Below are positions 19,158 through 20,920 of a DNA stretch of 64,000 nt, piece by piece. Made by a program: the position numbers and the translations under genes. This stretch comes from Arthrobacter sp. 135MFCol5.1. Its GTDB lineage: Bacteria; Actinomycetota; Actinomycetes; Actinomycetales; Micrococcaceae. The stretch is taken from positions 372,001 through 436,000 of the forward strand of contig NZ_KB895454.1 in NCBI RefSeq assembly GCF_000374865.1. Direction: 5' to 3'. Under the pieces are notes generated by a model. It was not told the DNA's origin. It saw only the letters and a list, made by a program, of their open reading frames with translations, and made no database searches. Position 1 is the first letter of the stretch, and each line of letters begins with the position of its first letter.

Positions 19158-20132
19158 TTAGAAGTCCCAGTCCTCATCTTCAGTATTGACAGCCTTGCCG
19201 ATCACGTAGGACGAACCGGATCCGGAGAAGAAGTCGTGGTTCTCGTCCGCGTTCGGGGACAGCGCCGACAGGATGGCCGGGTTTACGTCGGTGACGGAGG
19301 CCGGGAACATGGCCTCGTAGCCGAGGTTCATCAGCGCCTTGTTGGCGTTGTAGTGCAGGAACTTCTTGACGTCCTCGGCCAGGCCCACGCCGTCGTAAAG
19401 GTCGTGGGTGTACTGCACCTCGTTCTCGTACAGCTCGAAGAGCAGCTCGAAGGTGTAGTCCTTGATCTCCTGGCGCTTCTCCTCGGAAACCTTCTCCAGG
19501 CCCTTCTGGAACTTGTAGCCGATGTAGTAGCCATGCACGGCTTCGTCGCGGATGATCAGGCGGATCAGGTCAGCCGTGTTGGTCAGCTTGGCCCGCGAAG
19601 ACCAGTACATGGGCAGGTAGAAGCCCGAGTAGAACAGGAAGCTCTCCAGCAGCGTGGAGGCCACCTTCCGCTTCAGGGGATCGTCGCCCTGGTAGTAGTC
19701 CATGACGATCTGGGCCTTCTTCTGAAGGTTCTCGTTCTCGGTGGACCACCGGAAAGCCTCGTCAATCTCCTTGGTGGAGGCCAGGGTGGAGAAGATGGAG
19801 GAGTAGCTCTTGGCGTGCACGGACTCCATGAACGCGATGTTCGTGTACACGGCTTCCTCGTGCGGAGTCAGCGCGTCCGGGATCAGGGAGACAGCACCAA
19901 CGGTGCCCTGGATGGTGTCCAGCAGGGTCAGGCCGGTGAACACGCGCATGGTGAGCTGCTGCTCGGCCGGCGTCAGCGTGTTCCAGGACTGGACGTCGTT
20001 GGACAGCGGCACCTTCTCCGGCAGCCAGAAGTTGTTCACCAGGCGGTTCCAGACGTCCACGTCCTTGTCGTCCTGGATGCGGTTCCAGTTGATGGCCTCG
20101 ACGTGACTGAGAAGCTTCACTTTTTCGGTCAT
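19158..20132 (-). CDS. nrdF: Class Ib ribonucleotide reductase beta subunit NrdF
   Basis: A 324-residue radical-generating subunit that, with NrdE, reduces ribonucleotides to deoxyribonucleotides. It holds the dimanganese or diiron tyrosyl cofactor. Metal ligands are visible in ESVHAKSYS (Glu and His), [16 protein letters not shown] and [13 protein letters not shown]. The C-terminal tail, acidic and ending EDEDWDF, docks onto NrdE. Length is normal for the family. ATG 20132 overlaps the stop of the homing endonuclease gene (ATGA), and its GGAG ribosome binding site lies inside that gene, so translation of nrdF probably depends on passage through the inserted gene. Confidence 0.97.
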
Positions 20133-20920
20133 GACTCCGACTCGCTTTCTGAAGAGAGACTTGGTTTGGCTGAGTCCTCGACGCAATACTTGCAGTCGGC
20201 TTTCTCGATGCCTTTGTTGGTGTGATGTCTAGTGTGTGCGCTGCGCTGGCTGGAAGGCATTGGACGGCCCTTCCGAACCGCTGACATTTTCGCACGGGTT
20301 TCCTCGCTGGCCTTCTTCCCGAAGTTCGGATTCCCGGCGCCCTTCCTGGCTTCAGAAAGTGCCCTTCGGGCTTCTTCGCCGACAGTGCGTCCGAACCCTG
20401 GATGGTCCGGCCCGAACCTGCCGTAATTCGGGTTAGCGGTCCCGGAATTCGTACCTTTGCGGTCCTGTGACCACTTGCTGCGCTGCTCCACGCTGTGCTT
20501 TCCGCCATAGAAGGGGTTCGCTGCACCCGGCCGGCTCGACCCCTTACGCCCGGTACCACGTACACTGGCTGCCGCCCGCATCTCGTCCGTCCAGATGACG
20601 CCCATGGGACCAAGTCCGCCATCGGAAAGATTCAGCAGGCGATCACCCTCGCGGCGCAGGAAGCTGATCCACTCCATCTCGGCCCGGCCCAGATCCTGCA
20701 AGCCCTCGATCCAATCCAGTTCGTCCGCGATCAGGTCGGCGGGATCGTGCTTGCGGACCCAATCGTAGAACGGCGTTTTTCGGCCCTCCGCTGCTGCCCG
20801 GAGGTGTTGATGGAAACGACGACTGGCCGTCTTGGTGGTGATACCGACGTAGCGGTACTCGACCTCCCGCCGAAGCCGGATGCCGTAGACCAAGCCGCCC
20901 GCCGCCGTCGTCGTTTCCAT
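20129..20920 (-). CDS. Free-standing GIY-YIG homing endonuclease with NUMOD3 repeats, inserted between nrdE and nrdF
   Basis: A 263-residue protein. The N-terminal GIY-YIG nuclease domain (about residues 9-100) shows VYG at 11-13, YVG at 24-26, the conserved Arg region ASRRFHQHL at 32-40, the catalytic Glu region [10 protein letters not shown] at 79-88, and [10 protein letters not shown] at 95-104. The C-terminal half carries several NUMOD3 DNA-binding motifs of the N-x-x-(F/Y)-G type: NPFYG (135), NPNYG (163), HPGFG (173) and NPNFG (197), each followed by a short charged helix. AGGAGAGAG lies right before ATG 20920. Codons such as CGA, AGG, CTT and TCT are more frequent than in nrdE or nrdF. 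It is intact and translationally coupled to nrdF. Confidence 0.92.

Follow-up and report, generated by a model that had tools for sequence, protein, structure and literature searches.

Comparison with Described Homing Endonucleases

Free-standing homing endonuclease genes (HEGs) are known mainly from phages. A stretch of 64,000 nucleotides from Arthrobacter sp. 135MFCol5.1 (contig NZ_KB895454.1, positions 372,001 to 436,000; hereafter the window) contains a predicted free-standing HEG of the GIY-YIG/NUMOD3 type between nrdE and nrdF, the genes for the large and small subunits of class Ib ribonucleotide reductase (RNR). Phages often have free-standing HEGs in the neighborhood of their RNR genes (PMC10448857, PMC3653736). 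In phage T4, the free-standing HNH HEG mobE lies between nrdA and nrdB (PMC2988022), and the gene order in the T4 annotation was the same.

Both mobE and the window HEG lie between the large- and small-subunit genes of a class I RNR and have a start/stop overlap with a neighbor (PMC2988022). However, mobE is an HNH gene of a phage in a class Ia setting and its start overlaps the nrdA stop; T4 nrdB has its own promoter downstream, whereas the window HEG overlaps the nrdF start with its stop. The window HEG, a chromosomal GIY-YIG gene in a class Ib setting, was mobE-like in placement but was not a mobE. The T4 seg genes (e.g. SegF, SegG) are likewise intronless GIY-YIG genes that lie between conserved genes, with co-conversion of their flanks, but they are phage genes beside other targets, and the replacement of a host ribosome-binding region is not described in the accessible part of that paper (PMC2988022). 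I-TevI of the T4 td intron shares the GIY-YIG fold and residues and has a NUMOD3-type motif in its DNA-binding part; it is intron-encoded and has another C-terminal part, while the window HEG has no intron, at least three NUMOD3-type motifs, and, at its C terminus, an H/H/C/C motif.

Among open-licence papers, none was found that describes a homing endonuclease at a bacterial nrdE-nrdF junction, and the one paper found on NUMOD3 and RNR concerned Vibrio phages. The element is of a known kind (T4 seg/mob) in a bacterial setting that is apparently unpublished in this literature; new here is a family of chromosomal, intergenic GIY-YIG HEGs that take the place of the leader of the next host gene and leave scars behind. 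Comparison with relatives, in which the gene was seen in many soil actinobacteria and in some of their phages, suggested that the gene probably spreads as a free-standing HEG into actinobacterial nrdE-nrdF junctions and that its tail captures the nrdF start. If true, a chromosomal homing cycle is visible in related species at its empty, occupied, decaying, and scar stages, and the idea that a selfish gene can become fixed by taking control of an essential operon's translation start becomes testable.

The Gene and Its Product

The HEG is an intact open reading frame (ORF) with an ATG start at 20129–20920 on the minus strand, where a first-pass annotation made from the letters alone had placed a 263-residue protein (263 codons, 263 aa). 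A chance ORF was excluded because the homologues showed the same placement. On the same strand, nrdE (20953–23208) has its 3' end at 20953, encodes a protein ending in ...CVSCML, and matched positions 2–698 of 698 of the TIGR04170 profile; nrdF (19158–20132) begins at 20132 and covered 324 of 324 profile positions. With both neighbors complete, as had been claimed, and no Rfam intron match at the gathering cut-off anywhere in the window, the element was neither an intron nor an intein. The 32-nt leader between the nrdE stop and the HEG ATG (20921–20952, minus strand) carries the Shine-Dalgarno sequence AGGAG at 20923–20927 and stands in place of the hairpin of empty alleles.

The predicted product is an I-TevI-like GIY-YIG/NUMOD3 nuclease with the catalytic Tyr, Arg, His, and Glu in place. 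The GIY-YIG domain covers residues 8–97 (20630–20899, minus strand). In the window protein alone it scored 17.4 bits, under the curated Pfam cut-off of 22.6 bits, and 31 of the 41 aligned family members matched at E ≤ 0.01. Residues Y12, Y24, G26, R35, H39, and E81 aligned with Y6, Y17, G19, R27, H31, and E75 of I-TevI, so that the Arg and Glu positions corresponded. N97 was nearly invariant in the family and, when aligned, stood three residues off the conserved Asn (N90) of I-TevI. The NUMOD3-type repeats, with N-x-x-F/Y-G motifs and predicted DNA binding, lie at residues 134–213 (20282–20521, minus strand); Pfam NUMOD3 matched the window protein with E = 1.5e-17 (best stretch, residues 177–213) and was present in 41/41 family members scanned. 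The C-terminal motif H229-x3-H233/C243-x2-C246 (20183–20236, minus strand), a likely metal site, was invariant across the 41 aligned members.

Junction Alleles among Relatives

Within the genus of the window, 24 of 206 genomes carried the HEG, and in all 24 it was flanked by NrdE and NrdF. Matches were seen in 31 of 395 genomes sampled from the family, three of them tail-only scars and some others weak and unrelated; of 394 genomes sampled across the class, 8 matched, three of them weakly and unrelated. Named carriers include Arthrobacter, Pseudarthrobacter, Paenarthrobacter, Speluncibacter, Cellulosimicrobium, and Cryobacterium. The best 120 of 536 matches in the protein search were listed. 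The suggestion that such a gene is uncommon in a cellular bacterial nrd operon was not borne out for this clade, where it was not rare. Loci L206, L210, L211, and L212 were rejected as weak matches in unrelated places, and L209 and L213 were left out of the counts, with NrdE seen and NrdF not within the stretch. Among plasmids, just seven records matched, all of Bacillus and all partial, at 30%.

Out of 168 distinct loci with sufficient flank (identical sequences counted once), 116 were empty, 38 were occupied, 11 had a different insert, and 3 were scars. Judged by this comparison across relatives, with empty and occupied alleles at one site, the gene is a mobile allele. Empty nrdE-nrdF spacers were 87–145 bp long and had a GC-rich hairpin in a constant position, which was pairable (at least 10 of 14 pairs) in 116/116, had a perfect stem of at least 11 bp in 110/116, and contained one compensatory column (G-C in 100, C-G in 16). 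Of the 116 empty alleles, 109 had the hairpin motif and 113 the native AGGGGAHGA before nrdF; none of the 38 occupied alleles had either. The occupied alleles had other, mostly weak stems past nrdE, with L011 alone reaching 10 bp.

Strong hairpins at the same place were seen, for example, in the empty spacers of L060, L128, L214, and L232. In the genus labeled g60, several unrelated hairpin sequences occupied that one place, which suggests a conserved role, perhaps at the 3' end of the nrdE mRNA or in the nrdE/nrdF balance.

The 146-bp spacer of three scars in g60 combined a start of the resident type, a hairpin that was new and unrelated, and an HEG tail of about 38 codons, which joined an occupied-type nrdF. 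Decayed HEGs were also present: that of L017 had lost its start and carried an early TAA, those of L024 and L042 were frameshifted, and that of L191 had a premature stop close to its end.

Exchanged Flanks and Tree Conflict

Third-position divergence from the nearest empty relative was calculated for 27 occupied loci (24 from the genus of the window and 3 from sister genera). The first-pass annotation had proposed a search for co-conversion tracts, and both flanks differed sharply. For nrdF codons 2–13, the divergence was 0.565 between occupied and empty alleles and 0.092 among empty relatives; for the last 8 nrdE codons, it was 0.542 vs 0.206. Beyond these, the values were 0.222 vs 0.203 (nrdE codons −18 to −9) and 0.141 vs 0.095 (nrdF codons 14–23), and distal control blocks showed small differences (p from 0.01 to 0.47). 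In the window, the tracts exchanged with the HEG correspond to the last 8 codons and stop of nrdE (20953–20979) and the first ~13 codons of nrdF (20094–20132). Loci L039, L043, L044, L207, and L208, which were distant and had NrdE out of register, were omitted from nucleotide window analyses. Differences in the flanks tracked the HEG (partial r 0.36; 0 of 2000 permutations) above the distal genes (0.10). Intronless homing with short co-conversion would be expected to leave exchanged flanks of this kind. Selection acting on codons near the start might contribute to the divergence in nrdF, but it does not account for that in nrdE. In g60 locus L237, from the genome of L191, the HEG was surrounded by a resident nrdE leader and a resident nrdF from about codon 4–5.

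In nrdE, codons −60 to −20 had unusually low third-position variation (0.10–0.14) in empty and occupied alleles alike, possibly reflecting codon bias or a target site of which they form part.

Occupancy required at least 24 changes when placed on the tree of the distal nrd genes of 168 loci, and the starred branches forced at least 16, with scars scored as occupied. For 35 intact carriers (the decayed L017, L024, and L042 were excluded from this and from the substitution-rate analysis), the HEG and nrd topologies rejected each other in the approximately unbiased (AU) test (delta lnL 555 and 593), and in the HEG tree the nearest kin of the g60 HEG of L191 was L013 of the genus of the window. 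Recent transfer was not shown by synonymous divergence (dS): HEG dS exceeded distal nrd dS in 470 of 473 finite pairs, probably because nrdE and nrdF are strongly codon-biased; the tree tests took the place of this comparison. The earlier naming of a free-standing GIY-YIG/NUMOD3 HEG was supported by the fold, the catalytic residues, the empty and occupied alleles, the exchanged flanks, and the tree conflict. The two outcomes that the first-pass annotation had named as refuting it did not occur: the gene was missing from most genomes of the genus and its inheritance was not purely vertical, and the Arg and Glu positions did align with those of I-TevI.

The nrdF Start Region and the Proposed Mechanism

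In the window, the HEG stop and the nrdF ATG overlap in the ATGA at 20129–20132 (minus strand). This overlap, already noted in the first-pass annotation, was kept in 34 of 38 occupied alleles, the exceptions being L024, L191, L196, and L200. Its length was 4 nt in 25, 8 nt in 5, and 1 nt in 3 alleles, and in L042 it was reached by a frameshifted frame; distant carriers such as L043 and L208 also had it. In 18 close copies, the last 16 HEG codons (20132–20179 in the window, minus strand), which replace the native nrdF leader, were the minimum of synonymous variation among 254 windows (0.086, against 0.3–0.6 mid-gene). Anti-Shine-Dalgarno pairing before nrdF was about equal in empty (−8.4 kcal/mol) and occupied alleles (−8.1 kcal/mol), and therefore no change in NrdF translation could be read from pairing. 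The genome of the window had one class I small-subunit gene and no class II RNR above the cut-off, in a search that did not extend to class III.

The following mechanism is proposed. The predicted nuclease would cut nrdE-nrdF junctions that are empty; an occupied donor would then serve as repair template, and the HEG would be copied together with ~24 nt of nrdE and ~39 nt of nrdF. The 3' end of the HEG would then replace the hairpin and the native Shine-Dalgarno sequence and become the translation-start region of nrdF. We infer that the tail serves in this way and hinders clean loss. Removal of the whole element would leave the only class I RNR small-subunit gene detected in the host without a start signal. 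Loss would therefore tend to leave the tail behind, as in the three relatives with scars, and the gene is likely hard for the host to lose.

Two further candidates at the HEG 5' end were considered. Over 9 nt, the 5' codons ACGACGGCG resemble the hairpin arm of empty alleles, a possible sign that the gene had entered the hairpin; this reading was set aside, the resemblance being short. Capture of the native nrdF Shine-Dalgarno sequence as the HEG leader was suggestive for part of the family and was kept outside the main claim. The 14-mer AGGGGATGAMATGA was present as a single copy at nrdF in each of 8 empty genomes and at the HEG start in 2 of 7 occupied genomes searched (one with a second copy elsewhere); the other 5, including that of the window, had none. 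A match of at least 12 of 14 was found in 7 of 38 occupied leaders vs 3 of 5000 random 70-nt stretches, a control that was unmatched for gene starts.

Phage Homologues

The closest phage protein was gp111 of Arthrobacter phage Talia1610, with 35% identity over 91%. Its gene lies between gp110 and gp112, both annotated as ribonucleotide reductase, and overlaps both; nrdH- and nrdI-like genes precede gp110–gp112. The phage-like viral contigs L259 (158,613 bp) and L261 (37,609 bp) had the same order with tRNA arrays behind. Like the window HEG, these three genes sit at an nrdE-nrdF junction, encode the C-terminal H-x3-H/C-x2-C, and overlap the nrdF start; unlike it, they belong to phage genomes beside tRNA arrays, and they were 35–42% identical to it. 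In Gordonia phage GodonK, a GIY-YIG gene overlapped nrdF by 4 nt, and the gene upstream of it was that of DNA polymerase I rather than nrdE. GodonK (L265) has another gene annotated as a GIY-YIG endonuclease, at 7659–8180, beside an exonuclease gene. Two IMG/VR contigs, L257 (5.3 kb) and L258 (4.6 kb), had the HEG between NrdE and NrdF (NrdF 90% and 80% identical); being short and possibly bacterial, they were not counted as phages. A search of viral contigs with the window protein gave 14 loci whose similarity was partial and lay mostly in NUMOD3; in the single tblastn check to include these loci, none had NrdE or NrdF.

The phage genes at nrdE-nrdF junctions clustered with the bacterial HEGs against other Gordonia-phage GIY-YIG genes (97/98), with long branches; the tree does not fix the direction of transfer between host and phage. 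A wider reading is offered tentatively, as a possibility that we would not yet favor. Here, capture of the start site would be self-protection of the HEG, with host nrdF dependent on it and a domesticated tail left after loss, phages would ferry the gene between hosts, and one HEG lineage would share the nrdE-nrdF site across actinobacterial chromosomes and large actinophages with their own nrd operon. With this HEG family, an exchange of parasites between host and phage RNR operons would become testable.

Alternative Explanations

Several results weigh against homing with start-site capture. The link to I-TevI was weak: phmmer against PDB gave no match for the window protein, the profile match to the I-TevI DNA-binding domain had only E = 0.054, the best Foldseek match had E = 0.5, and hhalign aligned a single NUMOD3 stretch and nothing more. 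The target site of the nuclease was not found. In the 18 close copies, the first two windows of the HEG 5' end also had low synonymous variation (0.115 and 0.159), and conversion could account in part for the low values at both ends. Translational coupling to nrdF, as claimed earlier, stood as a conserved overlap and fell as strict coupling: the overlap was absent in some alleles, decayed and scar alleles kept nrdF intact, and the coupling is not obligatory because L024 and the scars had no frame running into nrdF.

Replacement of the junction also needs no such nuclease. The junction was inspected in 127 of 179 HEG-negative genomes having nrdF, and a different, HEG-free insert of 578–666 bp was present in 11 of the 127 (L081, L092, L105, L110, L134, L135, L142, L156, L163, L180, and L184). 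This insert had a small ORF with GSYRSAKTGRYVTPKYGKSHPSTTVKESK in six loci and a relative with DA(R/K)TGEFV in three. Alleles were evidently exchanged here without an HEG, and short exchange tracts on both sides are what ordinary recombination gives; the gene might be an inert passenger, swapped by homologous recombination in the conserved ends of nrdE and nrdF. This is unlikely, as the median ratio of nonsynonymous to synonymous rates (dN/dS, omega) was 0.11 over diverged copies, like that of the distal nrd genes (0.11), the catalytic residues were invariant, both of which argue for a working nuclease, and the same family was found at phage nrdE-nrdF junctions.

By its codon substitutions, the HEG protein is under purifying selection, which, with the conserved nrdF overlap and the nucleotide-level constraint at the 3' end, would also suit a nuclease that homes no more and is kept as a regulator of the nrd operon or a repair factor. 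We consider such domestication improbable, given the patchy presence, the repeated gain or loss, the tree conflict, and the decayed copies in L017, L024, L042, and L191. Much of the inheritance was vertical, since HEG and distal nrd distances were strongly correlated (r 0.78), but descent from an occupied ancestor with many losses and no horizontal movement is very improbable, because the HEG and nrd topologies rejected each other both ways, the flanks tracked the HEG and not the distal genes, and L191 kept a resident nrdE leader and nrdF around an HEG akin to that of L013.

Other Features of the Window

Upstream in the operon lie nrdI (23094–23615, minus strand; family match) and an nrdH-like glutaredoxin ORF (23649–23894, minus strand), the latter named by translation and position. 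Within 18900–24100, no sigma-70-like promoter was found, and the four terminator-like sites equaled the shuffled expectation in number and were all on the opposite strand. The codon choice of the HEG had been described as unlike that of its neighbors, which was true of nrdE and nrdF: G+C at third codon positions was 0.71 in the HEG vs 0.91 in both, and relative adaptiveness to nrdE plus nrdF was 0.31 vs 0.71 (nrdE) and 0.74 (nrdF). As an argument for foreign origin, codon usage was a weak sign, because nrdI of the same operon resembled the HEG (0.76 and 0.36, respectively). Elsewhere in the window, a tandem pair of tRNA-Ala(ggc) genes was found at 50907–51250 and a TPP (thiamine pyrophosphate) riboswitch at 60765–60862 on the minus strand.
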